A model generated the notes under the pieces. It was not told where the DNA came from and ran no database searches. It saw only the letters and a list, made by a program, of their open reading frames with translations. 64,000 nucleotides of DNA, from positions 1 to 64,000 of the forward strand of contig JAKAXL010000006.1 in the NCBI GenBank assembly GCA_021816585.1, written 5' to 3'. The stretch is from Pseudomonadota bacterium (GTDB taxonomy: Bacteria > Pseudomonadota > Gammaproteobacteria > Burkholderiales > Burkholderiaceae_C). The position numbers and the translations under genes were made by a program. Positions 1 to 18,888 of the stretch are shown here, one piece after another. The first letter of the stretch is position 1. Every line of letters starts with the position of its first letter.

Positions 1-549
1 GATCTCAAGCCCCGCGGCGTCGGCACCTGCGGCCGGCGCATCGGCCTCGACGCCGCAGGCGGCGGCTGCGGCGCCGGCCCGCTCGGGACAGGCGCCGGCA
101 CAGCCCGCGTTGTCGCCTGCTGGCGTCAATGGCGGCGCCCTGGGAATCGATGCCATCGACCGCATGCTGCGCGAGGTCGCCGTGATGGGGCCGCAGGCGA
201 CGAGCGCACGCCTGCAGGCGCTGCAGGCGCTGGGCGGCCGGCGCAGCCCGCAGCAGCGCCTGGAACTGGCCTACCTGCTGCTGACCCGCGCCGCGCCGGG
301 CTCCGAAGACGCGGCGCAGGCACGTGAATTGCTTAAGGGGCTGGACCGACAGTCCGACGACGTGGCCGGCCGGCAGTTCGTGCGTCTGCTGGATCGGCTG
401 GGCCGCCAGGCCGTGGAACTGTCGCAGAGCCGCGCCGACCTGGCCAAGGCAACCCGCAAGGCGGCCGAGCTGGAGGACAAGATCGGCCAGATCAAGAACC
501 TGGAGGTGCAGTTGCAGAATCGCTCGCAAAGCCGCGGGAGTACCAGGCG

Positions 550-553
<4 letters not shown>
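1..553 (+). CDS. QseG-like protein, C-terminal part (5' end outside window)
   Basis: The reading frame is already open at base 2 and ends at 553, so only the last 183 or so residues are present. The visible part starts with an Ala/Pro-rich linker, continues into a helical region, and ends in a charged coiled coil (…ADLAKATRKAAELEDKIG…). Its stop overlaps the next start (ATGA, 550-553), which couples it to a sigma54 response regulator. In enterobacteria the gene between the sensor kinase GlrK (QseE) and the regulator GlrR (QseF) encodes the outer-membrane lipoprotein QseG, which also ends in a coiled coil. Position and shape suggest the same role here. Sequence similarity is too weak to be sure, and the lipoprotein signal would lie outside the window. 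Confidence 0.6.
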
Positions 554-1893
<1,340 letters not shown>

Positions 1894-1943
1894 AGGGCCG
1901 TGGCCCCCGGCGCGGCGCCGCGATGCTCCGCGCAGGACCCAGT

Positions 1944-1961
1944 TGTCGCTCCACGGCGACA
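1944..1961 (+). promoter_or_regulatory. GlrR-type activator box 1 (TGTC-N10-GACA)
   Basis: Bases 1944-1961 read TGTC, ten bases, GACA. The dyad extends to TTGTCG / CGACAA (1943-1948 / 1957-1962). This matches exactly the enterobacterial GlrR (QseF) motif described for glmY. It lies about 195 bp upstream of the predicted start of the sigma54 transcript, within the usual range for an enhancer-binding activator. Confidence 0.75.
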
Positions 1962-2007
1962 AAATTCCCGTTTCTTGGCGCGGGCTTGGCGGCCCCCGTC
2001 GGACTCC

Positions 2008-2025
2008 TGTCGGGCTCCGGCGACA
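2008..2025 (+). promoter_or_regulatory. GlrR-type activator box 2 (TGTC-N10-GACA)
   Basis: This second exact TGTC-N10-GACA match has longer arms, CCTGTCG / CGACAGG (2006-2012 / 2021-2027). Its centre is 64 bp from that of box 1, about six helical turns, so both boxes face the same side of the DNA. It lies about 130 bp upstream of the predicted transcript start. Confidence 0.78.
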
Positions 2026-2089
2026 GGTCGCCCCCGGCCTCGCGCCGATGCTTCGCGCGGCGTCCCCCGGCATGCGTTGAGTCCCCATG

Positions 2090-2102
2090 CAAGTTGTTGA
2101 TT
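2090..2102 (-). promoter_or_regulatory. consensus IHF binding site
   Basis: Read on the minus strand, 2090-2102 fits WATCAA-N4-TTR at every position; on the plus strand it is CAA, GTTG, TTGATT. It lies between the activator boxes and the -24/-12 promoter. DNA bending by IHF at that place normally brings an enhancer-bound regulator to sigma54 polymerase. Confidence 0.7.
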
Positions 2103-2121
2103 CGACGTGAATTGCTCAAGC

Positions 2122-2137
2122 TGGCACGGCGTATGCA
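2122..2137 (+). promoter_or_regulatory. sigma54 (-24/-12) promoter
   Basis: TGGCACGGCGTATGCA matches the sigma54 consensus TGGCACG-N4-TTGCW at all but one position (A for the first T of TTGC). The invariant GG (2123-2124) and GC (2135-2136) are 10 bases apart, the required spacing. Transcription should start near 2148. The nearest sigma54 activator gene is glrR, immediately upstream, whose predicted binding boxes precede this promoter. Confidence 0.82.
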
Positions 2138-2147
2138 TATTCCCTGG

Positions 2148-2291
2148 CGAGAGGGCCCTGGATGTGCCGCTGCGGCGACCCGGGGTCCGCCTCGAAGCAC
2201 CCCTTGAAGCACCCCGAATCCGCCGCGCAGCCTTCGGCTACGCGTGGCCCGCAATCCCCCCTTGGCCAAGCCGCGTGCTTGGCATTTTTTT
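2148..2291 (+). ncRNA. predicted sigma54/GlrR-dependent small RNA (about 145 nt)
   Basis: The -24/-12 promoter predicts a start near 2148, and an intrinsic terminator ends at 2291, so the transcript would be about 144 nt. Within it, 2222-2248 folds into a strong hairpin: seven pairs, a two-base lateral bulge, four pairs and a UUC loop. The preceding segment contains the direct repeat GAAGCACCCC at 2194-2203 and 2206-2215, which is C-rich and a possible seed for pairing with G-rich ribosome-binding sites. Enterobacterial GlmY is likewise a GlrR/IHF/sigma54-dependent small RNA with a bulged stem. I see no primary-sequence homology to claim that name, and the target is unknown. The same transcript could instead be an attenuated leader of the downstream helicase gene. 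Confidence 0.68.
2265..2291 (+). terminator. intrinsic terminator of the predicted small RNA
   Basis: GCCAAGC (2265-2271), a five-base loop and GCTTGGC (2277-2283) form a perfect 7-bp stem, followed by A and seven Ts (2285-2291). It separates the sigma54 unit from the helicase gene that starts 88 bp later. Confidence 0.8.
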
Positions 2292-2378
2292 GCCCGCCGC
2301 ACGCGCACCGTGTTGCGCATGGCGCGCGTGGCGCACAATGTCGACCCGGGCGCCAGGCGCCCGCGTCCGGATCCACCC

Positions 2379-4268
2379 ATGCATTCCACCGAAACCACTG
2401 CGCCCGCGGGCGATGACGCGCCGCAGGCGGCGCCCGGCTTCGAGCAGCTCGGCCTGCCCGAGGCGCTGCTTCGATCGCTGCGCGACGTCGGCTACGAGAG
2501 CCCGTCGCCGATCCAGGCGGCGAGCATTCCGCCGCTGCTCGACGGTCGCGACCTGCTCGGCCAGGCGCAGACCGGCACCGGCAAGACGGCCGCCTTCGCG
2601 CTGCCGATCCTGGCGCGCGTCGACGTGTCGCGTCCGCTGACCCAGGCACTGGTGCTGGCGCCGACGCGCGAGCTGGCGATCCAGGTCGCCGAGGCCTTCT
2701 CCCGCTATGCGTCGCACCTGCCCGGATTCCACGTGCTGCCGGTGTACGGCGGACAGAGCTATACGCCGCAGCTGGCGGCGCTGCGCCGCGGCGCGCACGT
2801 CGTGGTCGGCACCCCCGGGCGCATCATCGACCACCTCGAGCGCGGCACCCTCAAGCTCGACGCGCTGCGCCAGCTGGTGCTCGACGAGGCCGACGAGATG
2901 CTGCGCATGGGCTTCATCGACGATGTCGAGCGCATCCTCGCCAGCACGCCGCCGCAACGCCAGGTGGCGCTGTTCTCGGCCACCATGCCGGCGCAGATCC
3001 GCGCCATCGCGCAGCGTCACCTGCGCGAGCCGGCGCAGATCACCATCAAGGCGCGCACCCGCACCGCCAGCGGGGTGGAGCAGCGCTACTGGATGGTGGG
3101 CGGAATGCACAAGCTCGACGCCCTCACGCGCATCCTCGAGGTGGAGAGCTTCGATGCGATGATCGTGTTCGCGCGCACCAAGGTGGCGACCGAGGAACTG
3201 GCGGAAAAGCTCGCGGCGCGCGGGTTCTCCACCGCCGCGCTCAACGGCGATATCCAGCAGGCGCAACGCGAACGCACGGTCCAGCGCCTGAAGGACGGGC
3301 AGATCGACATCCTGGTGGCCACCGACGTGGCGGCGCGCGGGCTCGATGTCGATCGCATCAGCCACGTGGTCAATTACGACATTCCCACCGATACCGAGTC
3401 CTACGTGCATCGCATCGGGCGCACCGGACGCGCGGGGCGCAGCGGGCAGGCCATCCTGTTCGTGACGCCGCGCGAGCGCCATCTGCTGCAGGCCATCGAG
3501 CGCGCCACGCGCCAGCGCATCGAGCCGATGCAACTGCCCAGCGTGGAGGCGGTCAACGATCGTCGCACCGCACGCTTCTTCGAGCGCATCGCGCAGACCC
3601 TGGAGCAGGACGGCGAGCTGCGTGTGTATTCCGAGCTCGTCGAGCGCTACGAGCGCGAGCACGACGTGCCGGCGCGCGAGATCGCCGCCGCGCTGGCCAG
3701 CCTGCTGCAAGGCGGCAAGCCGCTGCTGCTCGACGCCGCCGCCGCAGCGACCTCGCCCGCGCGCGAACGCCCGCCGCGCGAATCCGCTGCGCCGGCGGCG
3801 CGCCGCGCCGCGCGCGAAGCCGGGCCCGAGCACGCGGCGCCGGCGCGTGCGCAGCGCAGCCTGCAGCAACTCGCCGACCAGGCGATGTCGGACCTGGAGA
3901 ACTCGCGCGCGGCGGCGCGCGCGCGGGCGACGCCCGGCGCCATGCTGACCTACCGCGCGGACATCGGACGCGAGCACGGCGTCGAGGTGCGCAACCTGGT
4001 CGGAGCCATCGCCAACGAGACCGGGCTGGACAACAGCCGCATCGGCAACATCGCGATCCGCCGCGACTACAGCCTGATCGAGCTGCCGGCCGACATGCCG
4101 CGCGACGTGCTGCGGGTGCTGCAGCGCCTGCGCGTGCTCGGCCGCCCGCTGGGCCTGGCGCCGGCGCAGCCGGCGGGCGAGGGGCCGCCGCCCCGGCGTG
4201 GCGCGGCCGGTGCCCGCGGCGCCGCGCCGCGCGCGCCGGCTGCGCCGCGGCGCAAGCCGACGCGCTGA
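2379..4268 (+). CDS. deaD: DEAD-box ATP-dependent RNA helicase, DeaD/CsdA type
   Basis: The 629-residue protein unwinds structured RNA, in ribosome assembly and mRNA turnover in characterised relatives. All signature motifs are present: Q motif near residue 44, AQTGTGKT (63-70), PTREL (95-99), DEAD (169-172), SAT (200-202) and HRIGRTGR in the second RecA domain. An Ala/Arg-rich low-complexity linker leads to a DbpA-type RNA-binding domain (about 535-605) and a short basic tail. That domain and the overall length match DeaD/CsdA better than RhlE or SrmB. I chose the ATG at 2379 because the frame upstream of it runs back across the terminator at 2265-2291 and has no helicase-like sequence. Its own promoter, if any, must lie in 2292-2378. 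Confidence 0.9.
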   Translation: MHSTETTAPAGDDAPQAAPGFEQLGLPEALLRSLRDVGYESPSPIQAASIPPLLDGRDLLGQAQTGTGKTAAFALPILARVDVSRPLTQALVLAPTRELAIQVAEAFSRYASHLPGFHVLPVYGGQSYTPQLAALRRGAHVVVGTPGRIIDHLERGTLKLDALRQLVLDEADEMLRMGFIDDVERILASTPPQRQVALFSATMPAQIRAIAQRHLREPAQITIKARTRTASGVEQRYWMVGGMHKLDALTRILEVESFDAMIVFARTKVATEELAEKLAARGFSTAALNGDIQQAQRERTVQRLKDGQIDILVATDVAARGLDVDRISHVVNYDIPTDTESYVHRIGRTGRAGRSGQAILFVTPRERHLLQAIERATRQRIEPMQLPSVEAVNDRRTARFFERIAQTLEQDGELRVYSELVERYEREHDVPAREIAAALASLLQGGKPLLLDAAAAATSPARERPPRESAAPAARRAAREAGPEHAAPARAQRSLQQLADQAMSDLENSRAAARARATPGAMLTYRADIGREHGVEVRNLVGAIANETGLDNSRIGNIAIRRDYSLIELPADMPRDVLRVLQRLRVLGRPLGLAPAQPAGEGPPPRRGAAGARGAAPRAPAAPRRKPTR

Positions 4269-4296
4269 GGCACGGCCCGGCGAGCTTGCGCGATCG

Positions 4297-5532
4297 ATGC
4301 TGAACCGCCTCTGGCTCGGCCTGTTCGTCGCCGCGGCGGCGGCCGCGCTGGGACGCTGGTGGATCGGCGGGGATGCCGCCGTGTTCGGGGCCATCGTCGC
4401 CAGCCTGTTCGCGATGGCGAAGCTGTCGGTCGACGTGATGGTGCTGCTGTTCGGCACGCTCACGCTGTGGCTGGGACTGCTGGCGATCGCCGAACGAGCC
4501 CGGCTGGTGCAGGCGCTGGCTCGGGCGCTGGGGCCGGTGTTCTCGCGCCTCCTGCCCGAAGTGCCGCCGGGGCATCCGGCGCTGGGCCTGATCACGCTGA
4601 ACATGGCCGCCAACATGCTGGGGCTGGACAACGCGGCGACGCCGATCGGGCTCAAGGCGATGCGCGAGCTGCAGAGCCTGAACCCCAGCGCCGACACGGC
4701 GAGCAATGCGCAGATCATGTTCCTGGTGCTCAACGCGTCGTCGCTGACCCTGTTGCCGGTCAGTATCTTCATGTACCGCGCGCAGCAGGGCGCCGCCGAT
4801 CCGACGCTGGTGTTCCTGCCGATCCTGCTGGCCACCAGCGCGTCGACGCTGACCGGCTTGTTCAGCGTGGCGCTGGTGCAGCGCCTGCCGCTGCGCGATG
4901 CGCGCTCGCTGGCCTGGATCGCCGCCGGGCTGCTCGGTTACGCGCTGGTGCTGGCCGGGCTGGCCTCGCTGTCGGCGGCGGCGCTGGCGCGCGTGTCGGA
5001 ACTCGCCGGCAACCTGATGCTGTTCGGGGTGATCATGCTGTTCCTGCTCGTCGGGGCATGGCGACGCGTGCCGGTGTACGAGGCGTTCATCGATGGCGCG
5101 CGCCAGGGCTTCGACGTGGCGCGCGACTTGCTCCCCTACCTGGTCGCGATGCTGTGCGCGGTCGGCGCGCTGCGCGCGTCCGGGGCGCTCGACATGGTGC
5201 TGCAACTGGTGCGCTGGATCGTGCACCACCTGGGCCTGGACACGCGTTTCGTCGACGCGCTGCCCACGGCGCTGGTGAAGCCCTTTTCCGGAAGCGCCGC
5301 GCGCGCGATGCTGATCGAGACCATGCACCACGACGGGGTCGACAGCTTTCCCGCGCTGACCGCGGCGACCATGCAGGGCAGCACGGAGACGACCTTCTAC
5401 GTGCTCGCGGTGTACTTCGGCGCCGTCGGGGTGCGCCGCGCGCGCCACGCGGTCGCCTGCGCGCTGCTGGCCGACCTGGCCGGCGTGGTGGCGTCGATCC
5501 TGGTGTGCTACTGGTTCTTCGGTTCGCGCTGA
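4297..5532 (+). CDS. SpmA-SpmB fusion membrane protein (nucleoside-recognition/Gate domains)
   Basis: This 411-residue polytopic membrane protein joins the two halves found separately in sporulating Firmicutes. The N-terminal half carries SpmA-like sequence (…LNMAANMLGLDNAATPIG…). The C-terminal half carries SpmB-like sequence (…VKPFSGSAARAMLIETM… and …MQGSTETTFYVLAVYFG…). Both halves have Gate (nucleoside-recognition) domains with several hydrophobic segments. The fusion occurs in many non-sporulating proteobacteria, where its substrate is unknown, so 'spore maturation' is only a family name. It starts 28 bp after the helicase stop and may be co-transcribed with it. The ATG at 4297 begins directly before the first hydrophobic segment. 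Confidence 0.85.
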   Translation: MLNRLWLGLFVAAAAAALGRWWIGGDAAVFGAIVASLFAMAKLSVDVMVLLFGTLTLWLGLLAIAERARLVQALARALGPVFSRLLPEVPPGHPALGLITLNMAANMLGLDNAATPIGLKAMRELQSLNPSADTASNAQIMFLVLNASSLTLLPVSIFMYRAQQGAADPTLVFLPILLATSASTLTGLFSVALVQRLPLRDARSLAWIAAGLLGYALVLAGLASLSAAALARVSELAGNLMLFGVIMLFLLVGAWRRVPVYEAFIDGARQGFDVARDLLPYLVAMLCAVGALRASGALDMVLQLVRWIVHHLGLDTRFVDALPTALVKPFSGSAARAMLIETMHHDGVDSFPALTAATMQGSTETTFYVLAVYFGAVGVRRARHAVACALLADLAGVVASILVCYWFFGSR

Positions 5533-5557
5533 GCCGCGCGCGGCGCCTGCCGCGGTG

Positions 5558-6691
5558 TCAGACGATGGCCAGGTATTCGGTGCCGCTGCCGGGGTCGGAC
5601 TGGTCGTGCCGGCTGTCGAGCTTGATGCGCAGACGCAGGTCGTTCACGGAATCGGCGTTGCGCAGCGCGTCCTCGTAGGAGATCACCTCCTGTTCGTACA
5701 GGTCGAACAGGGCCTGGTCGAAGGTCTGCATGCCGAGTTCGCGGGAGCGTCGCATCACGTCCTTGATCTCCCCGACCTCTCCCTTGAAGACGTGATCCGA
5801 AATCAGCGGGGAGTTGATCATCACCTCCACCGCGGCCACCCGCCCGCGTCCGTCCAGCCGCGGCACCAGGCGTTGCGAGATCATCGCCCGCAGGTTCAGC
5901 GACAGATCCATCAGCAGCTGCGATCGCCTCTCCTCGGGGAAGAAGTTGATGGCGCGGTCGAGCGCCTGGTTGGCGCTGTTGGCGTGCATGGTCGCCAGCA
6001 CCAGGTGGCCGGTCTCGGCGAAAGCCACCGCGTGATCCATGCTCTCGCGGTCGCGGATCTCTCCCATCAGGATCACGTCGGGGGCCTGGCGCATGCTGTT
6101 CTTCAGCGCCGCTTCCCAGCTCTCGGTGTCGAGCCCCACCTCGCGCTGCGTGATGATGCAGTTCTTGTGGCCGTGCACGAATTCGATCGGGTCCTCGATG
6201 GTCACGATGTGGCCGCGGCTGTGCTCGTTGCGCCAGTCCAGCATGGCCGCCATCGACGTGCTCTTGCCGCTGCCCGTGGCGCCGACCAGCACGATCAGGC
6301 CGCGCTTGCTCATCGTCAGTTCCTCGAGCACGCGCGGCAGGCCGAGGCCGCGGATCGACGGAAGCTGCTGCGGGATCAGCCGCAGCACCAGTCCGATGCG
6401 GCCCTGCTGCACGAAGGCGTTGACCCGGAAGCGTCCGATGCCTCCCGGCGAGATCGCGAAATTGCACTCCTTGTTGCGCTCGAACTCGGCAGTCTGGCGG
6501 TCGCTCATGATCGCGCGTGCCAGCGCCTGCGTGTGCTGCGCGCTCAGCGCCTGCGCCGACACCTTGTGCACCTCGCCGTCGATTTTCATCGCCGGCGGGA
6601 AGTCGGCCGTCAGGAACAGGTCGGAGCCGCCGCGCTGCACCAGGCTGCGCAACAGGTCGTGGACGAATCTCGAAGCCTGGTCACGTTCCAT
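5558..6691 (-). CDS. pilU: type IV pilus retraction ATPase PilU
   Basis: This 377-residue hexameric ATPase of the GspE/PilT family works with PilT to retract type IV pili from the cytoplasmic face. Walker A GATGSGKS lies at 137-144, followed by the Asp box (EDPIEF), Walker B (VILMGEIRD) and the His box around GHLVLATMHAN. It lacks the AIRNLIRE motif of PilT, which together with its longer C-terminus identifies PilU. It is the last gene of the leftward run pilT, cyclic-nucleotide-domain gene, pilU, separated from the middle gene by 25 bp. Confidence 0.93.
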   Translation of the reverse strand: MERDQASRFVHDLLRSLVQRGGSDLFLTADFPPAMKIDGEVHKVSAQALSAQHTQALARAIMSDRQTAEFERNKECNFAISPGGIGRFRVNAFVQQGRIGLVLRLIPQQLPSIRGLGLPRVLEELTMSKRGLIVLVGATGSGKSTSMAAMLDWRNEHSRGHIVTIEDPIEFVHGHKNCIITQREVGLDTESWEAALKNSMRQAPDVILMGEIRDRESMDHAVAFAETGHLVLATMHANSANQALDRAINFFPEERRSQLLMDLSLNLRAMISQRLVPRLDGRGRVAAVEVMINSPLISDHVFKGEVGEIKDVMRRSRELGMQTFDQALFDLYEQEVISYEDALRNADSVNDLRLRIKLDSRHDQSDPGSGTEYLAIV

Positions 6692-6716
6692 GGAGAACTC
6701 CCGGGTCCGGATGGGT

Positions 6717-7361
6717 TCAGGCCGAATCGCTGCTCGACGGCGTGCCGAGCTTGCGCAGGCGCAGCGACAGGCGACGCGCCAGCGACCCCACGATGCGCAC
6801 CGCCGAGGCCGGATCGCGTTCGATCAACGCGTCCAGCATGCGTGCCTCCAGCACGGCGATTTCGCTCGGGCGCAGGGTCGTGCAGTACGAGGCGCGCGGC
6901 CCGGCGTCGAGCAGGGACATTTCGCCGAGCACGCTGCCCGCGCGCGCCTCGGTCAGGCGAACGCGCTCGCCCCAGGGCTGCTGGCGGTCCACCGCGACGA
7001 CTCCATGCAGCACGATGAACATGAAGCTGCCGGGTTCGTTCTGCTCGATGACGTCGCGGTCGGCGTCGATGGTCCAGAACTCGAAATGCCGCGCGCACTG
7101 CTCCAGGTGCTGCCCCGACAGTCCCGTCATGAAGCGGTCCTGCGTCCACAGTTCCTTCAGTCGCCTGGCGGCCGGCTCGTGGGCCAGGCGCCGGCCGCCC
7201 AGCGCGCGCGCGCGCTCCGCCCAGCCCGGTGCCGCCACGGTGCTGGCGGCGGCTTCCTGGAAGCCGGTGGTGAAGAACTGCGACTCCGGGAACCCGTCAC
7301 GCTCGGTCTCGCTGTCGGGGCTCTGGCGTCCGGTGCGCAGGAATTCCAACACCTTTTTCAT
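6717..7361 (-). CDS. cyclic-nucleotide-binding-domain protein between pilT and pilU
   Basis: This 214-residue soluble protein contains one CAP_ED-like cyclic-nucleotide-binding fold. The domain spans about residues 75-195, with the beta-roll sequence …EQNEPGSFMFIVLHGVVAV… and the phosphate-cassette region …GSVLGEMSLLDAGPRASYC…, whose GE and R positions look intact. There is no helix-turn-helix after the domain, so it is not a Crp-like transcription factor. Its position in the pilT-pilU run suggests a regulator of pilus retraction that senses a nucleotide, which is an inference. Whether it binds cAMP, cGMP or nothing cannot be read from the sequence. Confidence 0.8.
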   Translation of the reverse strand: MKKVLEFLRTGRQSPDSETERDGFPESQFFTTGFQEAAASTVAAPGWAERARALGGRRLAHEPAARRLKELWTQDRFMTGLSGQHLEQCARHFEFWTIDADRDVIEQNEPGSFMFIVLHGVVAVDRQQPWGERVRLTEARAGSVLGEMSLLDAGPRASYCTTLRPSEIAVLEARMLDALIERDPASAVRIVGSLARRLSLRLRKLGTPSSSDSA

Positions 7362-7412
7362 GGTTCGCTGTCCTGGGCGGGTCTGGTGGGCGGCGCGGCA
7401 TCCGGCAGGGCT

Positions 7413-8459
7413 TCAGGCGCCCGGGAAATTCTCGGGCTGCTTGGCCTTCGAGCGCGCCTCGGCGGGCGAGATCAGGTTGCGCCGCACCAGGTCGGCGAGG
7501 TTCTGGTCCAGGGTCTGCATGCCGTAGGCCTGGCTGGTCTGGATCATCGAGTACATCTGCGCGACCTTGTTCTCGCGGATCAGGTTGCGGATCGCCGGCG
7601 TGCCGATCATGATTTCATGCGCCGCCACACGCCCGCTGCCGTCCTTGAGCTTGCACAGGGTCTGCGAGATCACGGCGACCAGGGCTTCGGACAGCATCGC
7701 CCGCACCATGTCCTTCTCGGCTGCGGGGAACACGTCGATGATGCGGTCGATGGTCTTGGGAGCCGAGGACGTATGAAGAGTCCCGAACACCAGGTGACCG
7801 GTCTCCGAGGCCGTCAGCGCCAGCCGGATGGTCTCCAGGTCCCGCATCTCCCCCACCAGGATCGAGTCCGGGTCCTCGCGCAGCGCCGAGCGCAGTGCGT
7901 TGGCGAAACTCAGCGTGTGCGGCCCCACCTCGCGCTGGTTGATCAGGCACTTCTTCGAGTCGTGCACGAATTCGATCGGATCCTCGATGGTGAGGATGTG
8001 CCCGTACTCGTTCTCGTTCAGGTGGTTCACCATCGCCGCGAGCGTGGTCGATTTGCCGGAGCCGGTGGGGCCGGTCACCAGCACCAGCCCGCGCGGCTTC
8101 AGCGCCAGTTCGCCGAAAATCTTCGGTGCGTTCAGGTCGTCCAGCGAGAGGATCTTGCTCGGGATCGTGCGAAATACCGCGCCGGCGCCGCGCTGGTGGT
8201 TGAACGCGTTCACGCGAAAGCGCGCCAGCCCGCTGATCTCGAAGGAGAAATCGACCTCGAAGTATTCCTCGTAATGCTTGCGCTGGATATCGCTCATGAT
8301 GTCGTAGACCATCGCATGGACCATCTTGTGGTCCAGCGGCTCGACATTGATGCGGCGCACATCGCCGTGCACCCTGATCATCGGCGGAAGTCCGGCGGAC
8401 AGGTGCAGGTCCGACGCGTTGTTTTTCACGCTGAAGGCCAACAATTGCGTGATATCCAC
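7413..8459 (-). CDS. pilT: type IV pilus retraction ATPase PilT
   Basis: This 348-residue ATPase powers pilus retraction for twitching motility and DNA uptake. Walker A GPTGSGKS lies at 130-137, Walker B is DSILVGEMRD, and the PilT-specific AIRNLIRE motif is present near the C-terminus. The start is a GTG at 8459, preceded on the minus strand by an AGGGAG ribosome-binding site. The gene is divergent from yggS, the usual pilT/yggS arrangement in proteobacteria, and leads the pilT-CNMP-pilU run. Confidence 0.96.
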   Translation of the reverse strand: MDITQLLAFSVKNNASDLHLSAGLPPMIRVHGDVRRINVEPLDHKMVHAMVYDIMSDIQRKHYEEYFEVDFSFEISGLARFRVNAFNHQRGAGAVFRTIPSKILSLDDLNAPKIFGELALKPRGLVLVTGPTGSGKSTTLAAMVNHLNENEYGHILTIEDPIEFVHDSKKCLINQREVGPHTLSFANALRSALREDPDSILVGEMRDLETIRLALTASETGHLVFGTLHTSSAPKTIDRIIDVFPAAEKDMVRAMLSEALVAVISQTLCKLKDGSGRVAAHEIMIGTPAIRNLIRENKVAQMYSMIQTSQAYGMQTLDQNLADLVRRNLISPAEARSKAKQPENFPGA

Positions 8460-8605
8460 TGCAATCTCCCTGATATTCTGGCGAGTCGAATGACAGACTT
8501 TATAGTAAGGCCAGGGCCCGATGCTCCACCGCTTTGCGCGCCCCGGCGACGGCGCGTGTTGTTTCGGCTACACGCCGACCCGCTTTTCCACTGCAGGCTT
8601 ACGCC

Positions 8606-9355
8606 GTGAATCCGCCTTCGGACGACCTTGCCGCTGCCGCGGCCGAGCGGCTGCGGCAGGTGCGCCTTCGCATCGAGCAGGCGGCGCGCGCCGCCGGCCG
8701 CGATGCCTCGCAGGTGCGCCTGCTGGCCGTATCCAAGACCTTCGATGCCGACGCGGTGTCGGCGATGGCCGCCTGCGGGCAGGCCGAGTTCGCAGAGAAC
8801 TACGTGCAGGAGGGGGTCGGGAAGATCGCCGCGCTGCGCCCGCGCTGGCCGTCGCTGTGCTGGCACTTCATCGGTCCGCTGCAGAGCAACAAGACCCGCG
8901 AGGTCGCGCGGCATTTCGACTGGGTGCACAGCGTCGACCGACTGTCGGTGGCGCAGCGGCTGTCGGCGCAGCGCCCGGTGGAGTGCGACGGCAAGCTGCT
9001 GCCGCCGCTGCAGCTGTGCCTGCAGGTCAACATCAGCGGCGAATCCAGCAAGAGCGGCGTGCCGGTGCCGCAGGCGCGGCAGCTGGCGCACGACATCGCG
9101 CGCCTGCCGGGCCTGCGCCTGCGCGGCCTGATGTGCATCCCGGCGCCGGCGCAGGGCCTGGCGGCGCAGCGCGAGCCCTTCGCGCGGCTGCGCGAGCTGC
9201 AGCAGGACCTGGTGGAGTCCGGGCTTGCGCTGGACACGCTGTCGATGGGCATGAGCGCCGACCTGGAGGCCGCGGTGCTCGAGGGAGCGACCATCGTGCG
9301 CGTGGGCAGCGCCTTGTTCGGCGCGCGGGCCGCGCGCGCGCAGCCGCGGCCTTGA
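8606..9355 (+). CDS. yggS: YggS-family pyridoxal-phosphate homeostasis protein
   Basis: This 249-residue PLP-binding protein has the single-domain fold of alanine racemase's N-terminal barrel. The PLP lysine sits in LLAVSKTF, followed by the family-typical …FAENYVQEG…, …WHFIGPLQSNK… and, near the C-terminus, …LSMGMSADLEAA…. YggS proteins control the free PLP pool rather than catalyse a known reaction. I chose the GTG at 8606 because family alignments begin a few residues before the first helix (…ERLRQVRLRIEQA…). It is divergent from pilT. Confidence 0.9.
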   Translation: MNPPSDDLAAAAAERLRQVRLRIEQAARAAGRDASQVRLLAVSKTFDADAVSAMAACGQAEFAENYVQEGVGKIAALRPRWPSLCWHFIGPLQSNKTREVARHFDWVHSVDRLSVAQRLSAQRPVECDGKLLPPLQLCLQVNISGESSKSGVPVPQARQLAHDIARLPGLRLRGLMCIPAPAQGLAAQREPFARLRELQQDLVESGLALDTLSMGMSADLEAAVLEGATIVRVGSALFGARAARAQPRP

Positions 9356-9376
9356 GCCGGGCGCCGCCAGGCGCGA

Positions 9377-9769
9377 TCAGGCGCAGTCGGCGTCGTCGTG
9401 CAGGCGGCGCAGGTCCAGGCCCAGGCCGCGCAAGGCCTGGGCCCAGCGCTGGCGCTGGGTCTCGTCGAGCGCGGCGAGCGACTCGAGCATGCGGCGCCAG
9501 TGCCCCGGCTGCTGCGGCAGCGCGGCGCAGTACAGCAGCTGTTCGCCGCGCTGTACCGCCAGCACCGGAAAATTCTCCGGATCGAAGTCGCCCAGCGCGT
9601 CGGCCTGCCGTTCGACGTCCACCCACAGCCAGCGCGCTCCCGGCAGCACGTCGCGAGCCTGCTGCGCCAGCTGCGCGAAGCCCTGCTGCCAGCCACGGCA
9701 GATTCCGCACCACTGCGCGCACAGGCAGGCCACGGTCCAGTGCGGGGCGGATGGCTGGGCTGCCTGCAT
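9377..9769 (-). CDS. thioredoxin-fold protein with a CGIC active site
   Basis: This 130-residue protein has no signal peptide. A thioredoxin-like pattern spans the first 90 residues: a short strand, then CAQWCGICRGW containing the CxxC pair (CGIC), and later the cis-proline strand NFPVLAV. It is probably a cytoplasmic disulfide reductase or thioredoxin-like redox protein; the substrate is unknown. It ends 21 bp from the convergent yggS and lies 10 bp downstream of ettA on the same strand, so the two may share a transcript. Confidence 0.75.
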   Translation of the reverse strand: MQAAQPSAPHWTVACLCAQWCGICRGWQQGFAQLAQQARDVLPGARWLWVDVERQADALGDFDPENFPVLAVQRGEQLLYCAALPQQPGHWRRMLESLAALDETQRQRWAQALRGLGLDLRRLHDDADCA

Positions 9770-9779
9770 CGCGACGGAC

Positions 9780-11444
<1,665 letters not shown>

Positions 11445-11523
11445 GAATGTGCGTGGGGGAAAAGGCGAAAGTGGAAGGCCGCGCCCGGAGGGCGGTCGCG
11501 GCAGGCGGCATGCTGCCGCGGGT

Positions 11524-12132
11524 TCATCGCGGCACTGTAGCGCAGCAGGGCGTCCCGAAGTCCTGCATCGCGCGCGCGACCTCGCCGTCGCCCAGTTCCT
11601 CGCGCAGCAGAGCGAACATGCGCATATCGTGGTAGGCGCCCTTCCAGAACGCGAACTGGCGCAGCACCGCCTCCTGCGTGAAACCCAGCGCCTGCAGCAC
11701 CCGGATCGAGCGTTGATTGTCCATCGCGGTCAATGCGTTGACGCGATTGAGCTGCTTGCAGGCGAAACCGTAGGCCAGCACCGCCGTGGCCGCTTCGCGC
11801 ATCAGGCCGCGCCCCCAGCAGTCGGCGGACATGTCATAGCCGAACGACGCCATGTTGGTGGTCTGGTCCCAGAAGAACAGGCCGCAGGTGCCGATCATGC
11901 GCAGGCTCTGCGGGTCCAGCAGCGCGAAGCGGTCGTGGTGCTTCAGGAAGAAGTCCAGCACGCGCTGCGCCTGCAGCAGGTCGCCCAGGGTGTCGAGCTC
12001 GTAATGCCGGGTGACCTCGGGCTGGCCGTAGATGCCCAGCAGGCCCGGCGCATCGGTGGACTCGAGCGGGCGCAGCAGCAGGCGCCGGGTGCGCAGGTGG
12101 CGCTTGGCGGGATCGTATTCGAGTACGGACAC
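11524..12132 (-). CDS. GNAT-family N-acetyltransferase, RimJ/RimL-like
   Basis: This 202-residue protein shows the RimJ/RimL pattern: RHLRTRRLLLRPLESTDAP at the start, a central strand …MIGTCGLFFW…, and the acetyl-CoA pyrophosphate loop region (…CWGRGLMREA…). It ends in helices with …NQRSIRVLQALGFTQE…. The family acetylates N-termini of ribosomal proteins or small molecules; the substrate here cannot be predicted. The start is a GTG at 12132. It lies downstream of the Do-type protease gene but is separated from it by an intrinsic terminator. Confidence 0.85.
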   Translation of the reverse strand: MSVLEYDPAKRHLRTRRLLLRPLESTDAPGLLGIYGQPEVTRHYELDTLGDLLQAQRVLDFFLKHHDRFALLDPQSLRMIGTCGLFFWDQTTNMASFGYDMSADCWGRGLMREAATAVLAYGFACKQLNRVNALTAMDNQRSIRVLQALGFTQEAVLRQFAFWKGAYHDMRMFALLREELGDGEVARAMQDFGTPCCATVPR

Positions 12133-12238
12133 GCAGGACTCCAGCGGACGGGCAGGGCGCCGGGAACGCGTCGCGCGCCGAACGCCCCGGGGCGGGCCGC
12201 ATGACGGGCCGCGGCCTCGATGGTAGCTGCGCGACGCG

Positions 12239-12269
12239 AAAAAAAAGCGGCGGGGTCGGACCCCGCCGC
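12239..12269 (-). terminator. intrinsic terminator after the Do-type protease gene
   Basis: A perfect 10-bp stem (12247-12256 with 12260-12269) closes a 3-base loop. On the minus strand it is followed by eight Ts (complement of 12239-12246). It lies about 120 bp beyond the stop codon of the protease gene at 12393 and isolates it from the acetyltransferase gene. Confidence 0.88.
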
Positions 12270-12392
12270 AATCGCTTGCCGCTCGCTTGAGGCCTGGCCG
12301 GGACGACCCGGTCAGGAAGTCCTGGCCGGCGTTGCCGTCGCCGACCGGGAATCGTTGCCCGCCGAGGCGGGACCGTGCGGATCGCCCCGGGC

Positions 12393-13874
12393 TCAGCCCA
12401 GGTCCACCGGCACGAAGATGCGGTTGCTGCCGCGCTGGATCAGCAGCGCGATGGTGTTGCCTGCGCCTTTCAGGATGGAGCGCACCTCGGACACGCTGTC
12501 GACCGGCTTGCCGTCGATCGCCAGCAGGATGTCCCCCGGCTGCACGCCGGCCTGCTCGGCCGGGCCCGTGACGCCCTGCACCAGCAGCCCGCTGTGCACA
12601 TGGGCCTGCGCCTGCTCGTTGGGATTCAGCGGGCGCACCTGCAGTCCCAGGCCGTGGCCGCTGGCGCCGTTGCCGGCGTCGGCCACCAGTGTTCCCTCGG
12701 CGAAGCTGCCCAGCGTCGCATCGATGGTGGTCTGGCGATGGTTGCTCCAGACGCCCAGCTGCACCTTCTGGCCCGGACGCATCAGCCCGATCATCATCGG
12801 CAGGTCGGAGGAGTCATTGACCGGCTGGCCGTTGACGCTGAGGATGATGTCCCCGGCCTTCAGGCCCGCCTTGGCCGCCGGGCTGCCGTCGGTGACCTGT
12901 GCCACCAGCGCGCCGCGCGGGGTCTGCAGCCCGAAGGAATTGGCCAGCTGCTGGGTCACCGTCTGCACCGCGATGCCGAGCTTGGCGTGCTGCACATGGC
13001 CGTGCTCGATGATCTGGCGCGCCACCGATTCGGCGACGTTGATCGGAATCGCGAACGACAGCCCCTCGAAGGCTCCGGTCTGCGTGAAGATCTGCGAATT
13101 GATGCCGACCACGTCACCCTGCGTGTCGAACAGCGGGCCGCCCGAGTTGCCCGGGTTCACCGCGACGTCGGTCTGGATGAACGGCACCATGCTGTCGTCG
13201 GGCAGTGCGCGGCTCTTGGCGCTGACGATGCCGGCGGTGACCGTGTTGTAGAAGCCGTAGGGCGAGCCGATGGCCAGCACCCAGTCGCCGGGCTCGAGCG
13301 TGGCCGGGTTGCCGATGCGCACCGTCGGCAGCCCGGTGGCGGGAATCTTCAGCACCGCGATGTCGGTCTTCGTGTCGGTGCCCAGCACCGTGGCCTTGTA
13401 GCTGCGGTGGTTGGTCAGCGTGACCGTCACCGACTTGGCGCCCTTGACGACGTGCGCGTTGGTCAGCACCAGGCCGTCGGAGCTGATGATGAAGCCCGAG
13501 CCGAGTCCCTCGGTGGGAACCTGGTGCGGCGTCTGCCCCTGGAACTGCTGGAAGAACTGGAAGAACGGCGAATCGCGCAGTTGCGGCGGCACCTGCGACA
13601 GGTCCGGGCCGCTGGTCGTCGTGGTCAAGCCGCGCACGTTGATGTGCACCACGGTGGGGCCGAAGCGCTGGACGATCGACGAGAAGTTCGGCCCCCCGAC
13701 GGCGTTGGTCTGTCCCAGCGCAGCCGGCGGGTTGTTGAACAGCGGCAGGCTCTTGTGGTCGAGCTTGACCGGCGGCGGGCTGCCGGCGGCATAGCTGACT
13801 TGGTAGAGCGCGAAGCCGCCGGTGGCGACCGCGGCACAGACCGCGATCGCGGCCACGAGCTTGGAATTCTTCAT
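12393..13874 (-). CDS. Do/DegP-family periplasmic serine endoprotease
   Basis: This 493-residue HtrA protease performs protein quality control in the envelope. A cleavable signal or anchor segment occupies residues 1-30. The trypsin-like domain has catalytic His141 (NAHVVKG), Asp171 (TKTDIAVLK) and Ser244 (NPGNSGG). Two PDZ domains follow (about 305-385 and 410-490). Architecture fits DegP/DegQ/MucD; which paralogue it is cannot be decided. The ATG at 13874 directly precedes a typical lysine-then-hydrophobic signal. A longer frame upstream overlaps an intergenic region with repeats and lacks protease similarity. It is divergent from a SIMPL-domain gene. Confidence 0.92.
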   Translation of the reverse strand: MKNSKLVAAIAVCAAVATGGFALYQVSYAAGSPPPVKLDHKSLPLFNNPPAALGQTNAVGGPNFSSIVQRFGPTVVHINVRGLTTTTSGPDLSQVPPQLRDSPFFQFFQQFQGQTPHQVPTEGLGSGFIISSDGLVLTNAHVVKGAKSVTVTLTNHRSYKATVLGTDTKTDIAVLKIPATGLPTVRIGNPATLEPGDWVLAIGSPYGFYNTVTAGIVSAKSRALPDDSMVPFIQTDVAVNPGNSGGPLFDTQGDVVGINSQIFTQTGAFEGLSFAIPINVAESVARQIIEHGHVQHAKLGIAVQTVTQQLANSFGLQTPRGALVAQVTDGSPAAKAGLKAGDIILSVNGQPVNDSSDLPMMIGLMRPGQKVQLGVWSNHRQTTIDATLGSFAEGTLVADAGNGASGHGLGLQVRPLNPNEQAQAHVHSGLLVQGVTGPAEQAGVQPGDILLAIDGKPVDSVSEVRSILKGAGNTIALLIQRGSNRIFVPVDLG

Positions 13875-13948
13875 GGTGTGTTGGCTCCTGATGTGCAATC
13901 CAGGGGAATCGGTCCGACAGGCTGCATGATCCGCCCCCGTTCTTAGGG

Positions 13949-14074
13949 CGGGCTTAAGACCCGCCGCGCTCTCGGGAAAGCTGCAGGGTACACGCTGCGA
14001 TCCGGTTCCGCGGGGCACCGGCTGCGCACCGCTTCGGTCGGGCTTAGACCCCGGCAGGCTTGCGGGAAGTGTTG
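13949..14074. repeat. imperfect direct repeat in the protease/SIMPL divergent region
   Basis: Two related segments of about 35 bp start at 13949 and 14039. Both begin CGGGCTT(A)AGACCC and both contain …GCT..CGGGAA… about 20 bases later. The first copy is also an inverted repeat, GGCGGG (13947-13952) with CCCGCC (13960-13965). Placed between two divergent envelope-stress-type genes, they could be regulator sites or a degenerate repetitive element. I could not match either to a known motif. Confidence 0.45.
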
Positions 14075-14155
14075 AAGCCGCCCGGGCGACTGGCGTAGGG
14101 TTGGGGCGCTGCATCGCTTCACGGCGCCGACGCGCCCCGACCAGGAGTTCCCGAT

Positions 14156-14947
14156 ATGCCCGAGACCGCAATGATTCCCCGGATATCGCGCAGGTTGCGC
14201 ATGGCCCGCCGCGCGTTGCTGCTGGCAGGGCTGGCGACCGCGCTTCCCGTGCTGGCCGTGACGCTGCCGATGCTGCTTCCCACGGCCTCGGCCGAGCCCG
14301 CGCTCCCCCCGTCCGGGGTGCTGCAACTCGAAGCCCGCGCCAGCGCCGACGTGACGCCCGACCGTACCGTGGCGACGCTGGCCGCGGTCGCCCAGGGCAG
14401 CGACATCGCCAAGCTCAATGCGCAGGTCGCGAAGACCCTCGACGAGGCGCTGCGCCGGGCCCGCGCGGCGCCCGGGGTGCAGGCGGGCACCGGCAGCGTC
14501 GGCACCGTGCCGCGCTGGCGCGACAGCGGCGGCACGATGCGCCAGGACGGCTGGACCGTGACCGCGGTGCTGACCTTGCGCGCGGCCGATGCGCAGGCGC
14601 TGTCGGGCTTGCTCGGCGAACTCGGCGGCACCCTGCAGCTGCAGTCGGTGCAGGCCGAGATGTCGGCGGCGCAGCGCCAGCACGAACTCGAGCAGCTGAG
14701 CGCGCGTGCCATCGCCGCGTTTCGCGCGCGAGCCCAGGCCGCCGCGCGCGACTTCGGCTACGCCGGCTATACGCTGGGGCAGGTGCAGCTCAGCGGCTTG
14801 CAGGGCAGCGAGCCGCAGCCGCAGCCGCGCCCGCTGCTGCGGCAGGTGCTGAACGCGCAGCCGATGGTGCAGCCGGCGATCGCCGTGCAGCCCGGCGGGC
14901 AGGAGGTCGGCGTCAGCGTCAGCGGCACCGTGCAGCTCGAGCGTTGA
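14156..14947 (+). CDS. periplasmic SIMPL-domain (DUF541) protein
   Basis: This 263-residue protein has an N-terminal signal peptide (hydrophobic stretch about 19-42, cleavage probably after TASA). It is followed by one SIMPL/DUF541 domain beginning …GVLQLEARASADVTPDRTVATLAA…, which is the family signature. The domain forms oligomeric barrels in the periplasm and has no agreed function; some members respond to oxidative or envelope stress. A second ATG at 14171 is an equally possible start. It is divergent from the Do-type protease. Confidence 0.85.
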   Translation: MPETAMIPRISRRLRMARRALLLAGLATALPVLAVTLPMLLPTASAEPALPPSGVLQLEARASADVTPDRTVATLAAVAQGSDIAKLNAQVAKTLDEALRRARAAPGVQAGTGSVGTVPRWRDSGGTMRQDGWTVTAVLTLRAADAQALSGLLGELGGTLQLQSVQAEMSAAQRQHELEQLSARAIAAFRARAQAAARDFGYAGYTLGQVQLSGLQGSEPQPQPRPLLRQVLNAQPMVQPAIAVQPGGQEVGVSVSGTVQLER

Positions 14948-14998
14948 GGCGGCGTAGCTGCGCGCGGCGTGTGCGCCGCCCTCGCAGGCGGTTCGCGA

Positions 14999-16231
14999 TC
15001 AGGCCGCGCCGGCGCGCGCCGCGCTGCGCGGCAGCGCGGCCTTCGGCGCGTGCAGGTCGGGCAGCAGCGCCGCCAGCAGCCCGATCAACGGCAGGAAGGA
15101 GCAGACCTTGTACACGCCGACGATGCCGATCAGGTCGGCCAGCTGGCCCAGCGCGGCAGCGCCGATCCCGCCCAGCCCGAAGGCCAGCCCGAAGAACAGG
15201 CCGGACACCGCGCCCACCTTGCCGGGCATCAGCTCCTGCGCGTAGACCACCATGGCCGGGAAGGCCGATGCCAGCACGAAGCCGATGATCGCGGTCAGCA
15301 GCGCCGAGGTCTCGAGCCCGACGTAGGGCAGCGCCAGCGTGAACGGCGCCACCCCCAGGATCGACACCCAGATCACGCGCTTGCGCCCGATGCGGTCGCC
15401 GATCGGGCCGCCCAGCAGCGTCCCCGCGGCGACCGCGGCGAGGAAGATGAACAGGTGCAGCTGGGCGTCGCGCACGTCGATGGCGAAGCGCTTTTGCAGG
15501 AAGAAGATCAGGTAGGTGTTGATCGACGCCAGGTAGAAGAACTTGGAGAACACCAGCGCCAGCAGCACCGCCATCGTGCGCCGCACCACCGCGGGCTCGT
15601 GGGTCTGCACCGGGTGGGCCGCGGCGCGCTTGCGCGCCCCGCTGATGTGGTGGCTGGCCCAGCGTCCGACCAGCGCCAGCACCACCATGCCCAGCAGGGC
15701 GGCGGCCGAGAACCAGGCGATCGAGCGCTGGCCGTGGCTGACGATGATCGCGGCGGCCAGCAGCGGGCCCAGCGCACTGCCGGCGTTTCCCCCGACCTGG
15801 AAGATGGACTGTGCCAGGCCGTGACGCCCGCCCGAGGCCATGCGCGCGACCCGCGAGGACTCCGGATGGAAGATCGACGAACCCATGCCCACGCAGGAGG
15901 CGGCCATCAGCACATGCGGGAAACTGTCGGCACGCGACAGCAGCAGCAGTCCGATGAAGGTGAAGCCCATGCCCAGCGACAGGGAGTAGGGGCGCGGCTT
16001 GCGGTCGGTGTACAGGCCGACCAGCGGCTGCAGGATCGATGCGGTGATCTGGTAGGTCAGCGTGATCAGGCCGATCTGGCCGAAGCTCAGGTGCAGGTTG
16101 CCCTTGAGCAGCGGATAGATGGCCAGCATCAACGACTGCATCATGTCGTTGAGCAGATGCGAAAGGCTGATGGCGCCGAGCACGGAAAAGCGCGTGCCCT
16201 GGATGGCGCCTGCGGCGTCGGACTGGGACAT
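14999..16231 (-). CDS. MFS exporter of the fosmidomycin-resistance (Fsr) family
   Basis: This 410-residue major-facilitator protein has about twelve hydrophobic segments. The N-terminal …ISLSHLLNDMMQSLMLAIYP… and the loop …GLYTDRKPRPYSL… are typical of Fsr. The second half contains the repeated MFS loop …GPIGDRIGRKRVIW…. Family members export fosmidomycin and other small compounds; the physiological substrate is unknown. It is downstream of the PfkB kinase gene on the same strand, 117 bp away. Confidence 0.85.
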   Translation of the reverse strand: MSQSDAAGAIQGTRFSVLGAISLSHLLNDMMQSLMLAIYPLLKGNLHLSFGQIGLITLTYQITASILQPLVGLYTDRKPRPYSLSLGMGFTFIGLLLLSRADSFPHVLMAASCVGMGSSIFHPESSRVARMASGGRHGLAQSIFQVGGNAGSALGPLLAAAIIVSHGQRSIAWFSAAALLGMVVLALVGRWASHHISGARKRAAAHPVQTHEPAVVRRTMAVLLALVFSKFFYLASINTYLIFFLQKRFAIDVRDAQLHLFIFLAAVAAGTLLGGPIGDRIGRKRVIWVSILGVAPFTLALPYVGLETSALLTAIIGFVLASAFPAMVVYAQELMPGKVGAVSGLFFGLAFGLGGIGAAALGQLADLIGIVGVYKVCSFLPLIGLLAALLPDLHAPKAALPRSAARAGAA

Positions 16232-16348
16232 TCGGGGGCGTGGGAATGGGGACGGATGCCGCCGCGCACGCGGCGGCGGACCAGAACGAAGACTGTACGC
16301 GCTGCGCGGTTTTCCTGCCGGAGGCGCCCCCGCGCCGCGGCGCGCGAC

Positions 16349-17296
16349 TCAGGCGGCGCGCGCGGGCGCGGCGCAACCGTAGGCGCTGCCGTAGTCCTGC
16401 AGCAATTGCTCGAGGCTGGCGGTATGGTTCTGCGGGCCGCTGCAGGCCACCTTGCGCGCGCCCAGCACGTTGCCGAGGCGGCACGCGTCGAGCAGTTGCC
16501 AGCCCTGTTCGAGGGCCCACAGCAAGGCGCCGCGGAACGCATCGCCGCAGCCGGTGGGGTCGACCAGGCGCTCGGCCGCGAGTCCGGCCACGCGCGTGCA
16601 GTTGCCCTGCTCGTACACATCGCAACCCTGCGCGCCGCGGGTCACGACCAGCCCGCGCAGCTGCGCGGCGATCCGCTCGAGCTGCCAGCCGGTGCGTTCG
16701 GCCAGCATCGCCGCCTCGTAATCGTTGACCACGACCCAGGTGGCCTGCTCGATGAAGCGGCGAAGCTCGTCGCCGTCGAACATCGGCAGTCCCTGGCCCG
16801 GGTCGAACACGAAGGGCAGCTGCGCCTGCGCCATCTGCCGCGCATGCTCGAGCATCGCCTGGCGCCCGTCCGGGGCGACGATGCCCAGCCGCAGGCCCGG
16901 CAGCCGCGGCACCGGCTGGGTGTGCGCGAGCTGCATCGCACCGGGGTGGAACGAGGTGATCTGGTTGTCGTCGCGGTCGGTGATGATGTGCGCCTGCGCC
17001 GTGTGGCTGCCCGGGACCACGCGCACGTGCCGGCGCGAGATGCCCAGCTCGTCGAAGCGGCGTTCGTAGTCCGCGCCGTCCTCGCCCAGCGCGGCCAGCA
17101 CCACCGGCTCGCCGCCGAGCAATTTGTAGGTGTAGGCGATGTTGCCGGCGCAACCGCCGAAGTCGCGACGCAGGCTCGGCACCAGGAACGACACGTTGAG
17201 CACGTGGATCTTGCCGGGCAGGATGTGCTCGGCGAAGCGGCCTTCGAAGGTGGTGATGGTGTCGAAGGCGAGCGAGCCGCAGATCAGGCAGGACAT
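16349..17296 (-). CDS. PfkB-family carbohydrate/adenosine kinase
   Basis: This 315-residue ribokinase-fold enzyme has the first PfkB signature near …FGGCAGNIAYTYKLLGG… and the ATP/anion-hole motif DPTGCGDAFRGA with the catalytic Asp. Proteobacterial relatives with this N-terminus (…DTITTFEGRF…) are usually called adenosine kinase. The phosphate acceptor cannot be proved from the sequence. It stands alone between tpx and the MFS exporter gene. Confidence 0.85.
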   Translation of the reverse strand: MSCLICGSLAFDTITTFEGRFAEHILPGKIHVLNVSFLVPSLRRDFGGCAGNIAYTYKLLGGEPVVLAALGEDGADYERRFDELGISRRHVRVVPGSHTAQAHIITDRDDNQITSFHPGAMQLAHTQPVPRLPGLRLGIVAPDGRQAMLEHARQMAQAQLPFVFDPGQGLPMFDGDELRRFIEQATWVVVNDYEAAMLAERTGWQLERIAAQLRGLVVTRGAQGCDVYEQGNCTRVAGLAAERLVDPTGCGDAFRGALLWALEQGWQLLDACRLGNVLGARKVACSGPQNHTASLEQLLQDYGSAYGCAAPARAA

Positions 17297-17359
17297 GGGG
17301 CGAGGGAGTATGGGTGACGGGATCAGGCGGACTTTAGCGCGTATCCCGCCGCACGCCCG

Positions 17360-17860
17360 TCAAGCCAGCGCTGCGATCGCCGCCGAGTAATCCGGTTCCT
17401 GTGCGATTTCGGGAACGAGTTCGCTGTGCAGGACCTGGTCGTTCTCGTCCAGCACGACCACCGCGCGCGCGGTCAGCCCGCGCAGCGGGCCGTTGCTCAT
17501 GTTGACGCCCCAGTCGTTCAGGAAGCCCGGGTTGCGGAAGGTCGACAGCGTGACCACGTTGTCCAGGCCCTCGACGCTGCAGAAGCGGCTGGCGCCGAAG
17601 GGCAGGTCGGCGGAGACCACCAGCACCACGGTGTTGGCCAGCGAGCCGGCCTGCTGGTTGAAGTGGCGGGTCGACTGCGCGCAGGTGGGCGTGTCCAGCG
17701 ACGGCACGATGTTGAGCACCTTGCGCTTGCCGGCCCAGGCGTCCAGGCCGACATCGGCCAGGCTCTTGTCGGTCAGGCGCAGCGCGGGCGCCTTGCTGCC
17801 GGGACGCGGCAGCGTGCCCTGGACGTCGATCGGGGTGCCGCGCAAGGTGATCTGGGCCAT
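17360..17860 (-). CDS. tpx: lipid-hydroperoxide-specific thiol peroxidase
   Basis: This 166-residue atypical 2-Cys peroxiredoxin reduces H2O2 and alkyl hydroperoxides with thioredoxin. Peroxidatic Cys60 lies in PSLDTPTC and resolving Cys94 in ASRFCSVEG, matching the E. coli Tpx cysteines. I chose the ATG at 17860 because it begins at the family N-terminus and follows a CAGGAG-type ribosome-binding site. A longer frame upstream has no similarity. Confidence 0.95.
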
Positions 17861-18033
17861 CGGGTCGGTCTCCTGGAGTGTTCGTCGTGAAGTGCCGACG
17901 GATGCCGGCTCGAAGCGCCGCGGCGGTGCGGCGTGAACGGATCCGAGCATGCTAGTGAGTCGCCAGCGCCGGTGAGGGCGGCCGCAAAAGGCCCTTCAAC
18001 TCATGTGGGAAACAGCGGCGCCACCCGGGGCGG

Positions 18034-18447
18034 TCAGGCCGTCCACGGATCCAGCACCAGCAGATCCGGGTGCCGGAAATCCCTGAGGTTGCGCGTCACC
18101 AGCGTCAGCCCATGGGTCAATGCGGTCGCGGCGAGCAGACTGTCGATGGCCGGCAGGGGACGACCCGCCTGGGCCAGCAGCCGCCCCCAGCGCTGCGCGA
18201 CGGGCGCATCCACCGGCAGGATGCGACCCGCGAAGTAGGCGGGCAACTCGCTGTCCATCCAGTCCAGCAGGCGGCGCCTGCGAGGTCCTTCCGGCAAGCC
18301 CTCGATGCCCTTGCGCAACTCGCCCAGCGTGAGGACGGACAGGTACAGGGTCGTGGCGGGCCGATCGGCCATCCAGCGCAGGACATGGGCGTGCGGGTCG
18401 CGCCGCCGCAGTTCCGACAGCACGTTGGTGTCGATGAGGTAGCTCAA
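18034..18447 (-). CDS. PIN-domain toxin, VapC/FitB type
   Basis: This 137-residue putative ribonuclease has the PIN signature: acidic residues in YLIDTNVLSELRR at the N-terminus, a central LGELRKGIE, PAIDSLLAATA, and RNLRDF near the end. These supply the conserved metal-binding Asp/Glu set. YLIDTNVLSE and the C-terminal RNxxDF are typical of the FitB subgroup. Its start overlaps the antitoxin stop by 4 bases (18444-18447), the usual translational coupling of type II toxin-antitoxin pairs. Both genes look intact. Confidence 0.92.
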   Translation of the reverse strand: MSYLIDTNVLSELRRRDPHAHVLRWMADRPATTLYLSVLTLGELRKGIEGLPEGPRRRRLLDWMDSELPAYFAGRILPVDAPVAQRWGRLLAQAGRPLPAIDSLLAATALTHGLTLVTRNLRDFRHPDLLVLDPWTA

Positions 18448-18695: not shown

Positions 18696-18703
18696 GCAAA
18701 CTC

Positions 18704-18728: not shown

Positions 18729-18775
18729 TATCCGGCCTGCCGCGGTCCGCCGACCCACGAACGAAAAGCCGAACG

Positions 18776-18803: not shown

Positions 18804-18812
18804 CCGGATCGG

Positions 18813-18888
<76 letters not shown>

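Follow-up and report, generated by a model that had tools for sequence, protein, structure and literature searches.

A putative GlrR-controlled sigma54 unit downstream of glrR in a Burkholderiales genus: a predicted RNA with a nearly invariant 3′ end and a repeatedly absent small open reading frame

In enterobacteria, the gene for the small RNA (sRNA) GlmY has a sigma54 promoter, QseF/GlrR sites of the form TGTN12ACA, and an IHF site; as described in PMC6075780, this gene adjoins the glrR operon on its upstream side and GlmY sequesters RapZ. SgrS/SgrT is built differently: according to PMC4021124, an open reading frame (ORF) for a small protein lies in the 5′ part of the RNA, a conserved pairing region is located just before the terminator, and the gene sits beside that of its own activator, whereas the ~85–140-nt SgrS RNAs of Yersinia are without the ORF. 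A betaproteobacterial example, S17 of Bordetella and its Burkholderia counterpart bdhR1, is an sRNA with a terminator end and a stretch for which 100% conservation across species is reported, and pairs with mRNAs; in the available description (PMC11722255, a preprint), S17 has a sigmaA promoter, is processed by RNase E, and represses a sigma54 activator.

Here, we analyze a locus in a 64,000-nt stretch of DNA from a member of the Burkholderiales (the window, to which all positions refer). An earlier note on this DNA had proposed that positions 1944–2291 form a GlrR/IHF/sigma54 unit for an sRNA analogous to GlmY. No description of a GlrR-driven RNA in Burkholderiales was found in the literature searched, which consisted of titles and abstract openings with most subscription journals outside its reach. 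In our best explanation, to which we assign a probability of about 0.6, the unit encodes a GlrR/IHF/sigma54-driven RNA built like SgrS/SgrT, with a candidate anti-Shine–Dalgarno seed at its 3′ end and a coding part that has been lost in the lineage of the window.

The unit resembles that of GlmY, as far as the latter is described, in its promoter type (sigma54, GlrR boxes, IHF) and in lying beside glrR, but it is located downstream of glrR rather than upstream of the glrK operon, and in the genus it is mostly also protein-coding. Beyond the promoter type, the analogy with GlmY drawn in the earlier note gained no support, with no Rfam covariance model match to GlmY or GlmZ in the window and seven relatives. 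The architecture described for SgrS/SgrT is the same, ORF-less forms included, in that relatives carry a conserved small ORF and a conserved 3′ region beside the terminator; the activator, however, is SgrR there and a sigma54 response regulator here, the protein here looks exported by eye, and no Rfam match to SgrS was found in the window or the seven relatives. S17, which we liken by description only, shares the betaproteobacterial origin, the invariant stretch, and the terminator end, but has a sigmaA promoter and represses a sigma54 activator, whereas the present unit is predicted to be driven by one; the locus gave no Rfam match to a related family. Indeed, no Rfam family reached threshold at the locus. 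A weak similarity to SorX of Rhodobacter (RF02784), an RNA that likewise stems from the 3′ end of an mRNA, was seen over 2229–2290 (20.3 bits versus a gathering score of 46.6); it did not appear in the seven relatives searched and was dismissed as chance.

The promoter unit downstream of glrR

The gene at 550–1893 (plus strand) encodes a sigma54 response regulator with a receiver and an AAA+ sigma54-interaction domain, as judged from Pfam matches to Response_reg and Sigma54_activat. GlrR (NF011695) is the best NCBIfam model for the product; because its score of 563 bits is below the curated cut-off of 763, GlrR-like is the safe name. The closest named GlrR proteins are ~61–64% identical to it. 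Between the stop codon of this gene, hereafter glrR (1893), and the ATG of a DEAD-box helicase gene (2379) there are 485 bp, and the elements that the earlier note had placed in this gap were all recovered. A distal GlrR-type box, TGTCGCTCCACGGCGACA, is located at 1944–1961 and a proximal one, TGTCGGGCTCCGGCGACA, at 2008–2025, both on the plus strand and 64 bp apart from start to start. They are followed by WATCAANNNNTTR at 2090–2102 on the minus strand, an exact match to the IHF consensus, and by TGGCACGGCGTATGCA at 2122–2137 on the plus strand, which corresponds to the −24/−12 consensus of sigma54 promoters and predicts a transcription start at ~2148. The intrinsic terminator, GCCAAGC-CGCGT-GCTTGGC-A-T7, occupies 2265–2291 on the plus strand, with the stem at 2265–2283 followed by an A and seven T (2285–2291). 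The distance from promoter to terminator thus predicts a noncoding RNA of ~144 nt at 2148–2291 (plus strand). TGTN12ACA boxes, the consensus given for QseF/GlrR sites in PMC6075780, an IHF site, and a −24/−12 promoter are therefore present in the order of a GlrR/IHF/sigma54 regulon unit.

A single loose box (TGTC-N8..12-GACA) is not unusual, with six in the window, which is GC-rich, against 3.4 expected. The spaced pair is rare: TGTCG-N8-CGACA occurs twice at a distance of 35–60 bp in just two places in the 3.4-Mb genome of the organism (93.6% complete), and nowhere in the reversed control.

The arrangement can be followed directly through the sequences of the genus. A 521-bp region was searched in 28 genus genomes and matched in 27, and in all 27 the best match is directly downstream of glrR; a lack of conservation in close relatives, which the earlier note had named as a ground for refutation, was not seen. 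The remaining genome (G024) has neither the element nor a close GlrR (best match 46%; assembly 91% complete). Two second, weaker matches away from glrR (L108 and L109) were left out of these counts, and L110–L112 are repeats of loci already counted. A sigma54 site together with a box (at most one mismatch) is found at all 27 loci (on average 0.03 of 27 after shuffling of the gaps), and the sigma54 site beside the box scores at least 14 every time. A box pair spaced 60–70 bp, with at most one mismatch per box, is present at 22 loci (0.0 in shuffled gaps), although both boxes are perfect in just six. The shuffles were made by dinucleotide resampling, which does not preserve dinucleotides exactly. 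At 22 of the 27 loci there is also an IHF site that departs from the consensus in one position at most, the shuffle comparison covering the boxes and the sigma54 site.

A small open reading frame in the genus and its repeated absence

At 21 of the 27 genus loci, the same predicted transcript carries an ORF of 50–119 residues with an AAGMP motif; at one of them (L084) the reading begins at a more upstream GTG. By eye, the N terminus of the protein resembles a signal peptide, and the protein is probably exported. Two examples had no match to any Pfam or NCBIfam family. When the motif was searched as a more stringent DNA pattern, 16 of the 28 genomes had a single match each, always at the glrR locus and always among the 21 genomes that carry the ORF; the control had none. 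The earlier note had seen no convincing gene in the gap of the window, and this stands in that the kind of ORF found in relatives is missing there and does not lie inside the predicted RNA; what its picture did not include is the small protein that the same predicted transcript encodes at the 21 loci.

The ORF is missing at six loci (L001, which is that of the window, L082, L097, L102, L103, and L106), where the predicted RNAs are 70–144 nt long. In a tree of glrR (870 nt), L106 has the ORF-bearing L101 as its sister (support 96); the remaining five loci without the ORF fall in the other main clade. The outgroups of this tree (L113 and L114) were labelled as ORF-bearing by default, a label that the tree does not use. 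The presence of the ORF in both main clades suggests that it is ancestral in the genus, and, since L106 stands apart from the other five, there would then have been at least two independent losses; the branches that decide between two and three are weak (29–72).

A plainer reading would be that the unit serves only to make, under GlrR control, the mRNA of a small exported protein, and that the copy in the window is decaying, its promoter and terminator having yet to disappear. The predominance of ORF-bearing loci speaks for this, as does a difference in dN/dS between the clades: the ORF has values of 0.11–0.33 in seven pairs from the clade of L094–L107 and of 0.32–0.83 in six pairs from the clade of the window, to which all ORF-less loci but L106 belong. 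The same values also count toward a conserved small ORF of the SgrS/SgrT kind. We nevertheless regard it as unlikely, because none of the six ORF-less loci has lost the sigma54 site or the 3′ block described below, and each retains one box or more. Over the 31 nt of seed, stem, and T-run, there are no differences in any of the 15 pairs of ORF-less genomes, even though the ORF would have been lost at least twice and these pairs differ at 11–34% of the fourfold sites compared in glrR. Moreover, a terminator alone should need to keep neither C6UU nor a fixed stem sequence.

The nearly invariant 3′ end

A 16-nt block, CCCCCCTTGGCCAAGC, at 2256–2271 (plus strand), comprises the candidate seed and the 5′ half of the terminator stem and is identical at all 27 genus loci. 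The stem is also the same at all of them, while the loop is variable, so that the RNA 3′ end, CCCCCCUUGGCCAAGC-loop-GCUUGGC-U7, is invariant save for the loop and the base after the stem, which deviates once (L098). Averaged over pairs, identity reaches 0.93 in the 3′ block and 0.74 in the promoter, compared to 0.49, 0.54, and 0.57 in three 40-nt segments of flanking DNA. The terminator pattern was found in six of 399 family genomes, which are all six genus members in that sample, and in none of the 393 from outside the genus. Being invariant, the stem offers no covariation signal. It is this conservation that singles out the terminator, and not the scan that detected it, which taken alone is near chance (nine terminators found in positions 1–20000 of the window versus 7.1 expected). 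Additional copies of the block were not evident in the genome of the organism, where CCCCCCTTGG has seven sites compared to four in the control; only the element's own site has a terminator within the 45 nt examined.

The 3′ end of 16S rRNA carries the anti-Shine–Dalgarno sequence, and the C6UU beside the terminator resembles that end. Hfq-dependent sRNAs commonly expose their seed next to a U-tailed terminator hairpin. When the last 65 nt are folded, C6 is more than half unpaired at 26 of the 27 loci (the exception being L086), and in full-length folds at 23. C6 is mostly paired in the full-length RNA of the window (0.14 unpaired), as it is in those of the nearest relative L082 (0.33 unpaired), L083, and L085, and the predicted RNA of the window as a whole folds no better than shuffled sequences (z = −0.96). 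Because of this pairing, the 5′ part might cover the seed in the window RNA, in which case processing or a chaperone would be needed to expose it.

The block might instead owe its conservation to a function as DNA or in termination, for example as a protein-binding site or for strong insulation, without any role in trans. As a yardstick, we joined three further terminator regions from the window in one query and searched the genus with it at E ≤ 0.001. One of them matched 19 other genus genomes at 79–97% identity, and the others matched one and seven. Terminators can thus be conserved in this genus, yet the 3′ block, present in 26 other genomes, exceeds all three controls, the best of which also has the lower identity.

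The search for sites complementary to the candidate seed is also compatible with a role in cis, as it named no target. Across the 28 genomes, AAGGGGGGA shows no excess, with 199 sites, ~26 of which are the element itself, versus 172 in the reversed control. Among the matches listed, 80 stretches around such sites, from 14 genomes, were compared; 18 of them form seven groups of recurring sites, and no recurring group at a start codon was judged both shared and real. In favour of a base-pairing seed, the longer pattern AAGGGGG-N3..10-ATG is found 683 times in the 28 genomes compared to 241 in the reversed control, which is a weak control because G-rich sequence is expected before an ATG anyway. 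The block is, however, kept in front of different downstream genes, and taking these points together we consider conservation purely in cis to be rather improbable, and somewhat more so than a decaying mRNA. That the promoter serves the downstream helicase gene by read-through is very improbable, since, although this gene directly follows the unit at 15 of the 27 loci, a conserved terminator lies in between and the unit is kept at the 12 loci where the helicase gene does not directly follow (at two of these it is found further on within the stretch examined).

Two side observations concern these searches. The yardstick region that matched 19 genomes, at 12231–12295 on the minus strand, is a terminator downstream of an HtrA/DegP-like gene (by eye) and is possibly another RNA 3′ end. 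Among the fetched stretches around AAGGGGGGA sites, one (L180, in the nearest relative, G006) has the site upstream of an ORF that looks Hfq-like by eye, in that genome only.

Proposed mechanism and related units outside the genus

Returning to the SgrS/SgrT-like reading, we propose that GlrR, aided by IHF at the promoter, would activate sigma54 polymerase at 2122–2137, yielding the predicted RNA with its end at 2291. This transcript would probably have been a dual RNA in the ancestor of the genus, serving as the mRNA for a small, probably exported protein and carrying a base-pairing 3′ end, and in the lineage of the window the ORF would have been lost and the RNA kept. With its C6UU, the RNA would obstruct ribosome-binding sites rich in G, perhaps those of envelope-related mRNAs. 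GlrR binding, transcription, base pairing, targets, and the envelope role are the inferred parts of this proposal. More tentatively, and with clearly less than an even chance of being right, the 3′ end could act as a general anti-Shine–Dalgarno mimic, and what was once the mRNA for an exported protein could, on two or more occasions within one genus, have become an RNA with regulatory functions only, so that mRNA, dual RNA, and sRNA would form a natural series. If the unit is transcribed, RNAs under GlrR control, described in enterobacteria, would also exist in a Burkholderiales genus, and its species would offer a series along which the coding part of a transcript is lost and the 3′ end remains unchanged.

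Units of this type are also seen outside the genus. In the family, a sigma54 site and a box are located downstream of glrR at 23 of 27 loci, these being the best-matching 27 of 51 matching genomes, and among wider glrR loci at nine of the 30 analysed out of 80. In other Burkholderiales, the unit precedes opgG, opgH, or BON-protein genes, several of which are envelope-related; opgG and opgH function in periplasmic glucan synthesis. Six downstream proteins or fragments were tested against profiles, the remaining downstream genes being judged by eye among those listed. The L005 protein matches Pfam MdoG (OpgG) and has no NCBIfam match, a 130-residue fragment from L124 has no Pfam match and hits NCBIfam MdoH (OpgH) with a score far under the cut-off for the full-length protein, the L006 and L002 proteins match BON, the L009 protein matches EF-hand, and a Pfam search with the L132 fragment gave no match. 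The interpretation in the earlier note is partly supported: a GlrR/IHF/sigma54 unit conserved in close relatives does lie downstream of glrR, but outside the genus it precedes protein genes. A general layout with a GlrR unit directly downstream of glrR and before opgG, opgH, or BON-protein genes is suggested, and would make a role of GlrR outside enterobacteria directly testable.

The organism's own genome contains a second GlrR-type box pair (L233, G000:C79:794-878), downstream of pyrE and followed by a sigma54-like site and then by a 64-residue ORF, whose product has no Pfam or NCBIfam match. At L253 no ATG or GTG start of the MSTNSR/MTTNSR type was called, and at L255, L259, and L260 no ORF of this type. 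Small proteins of 60–67 residues that start with MSTNSR or MTTNSR do follow box pairs at five further loci (L256, L257, L261, L262, and L263), which are distributed over G006, G018 (two loci), G021, and G022; the sigma54 site at L257, in G021, scores poorly (12.5).
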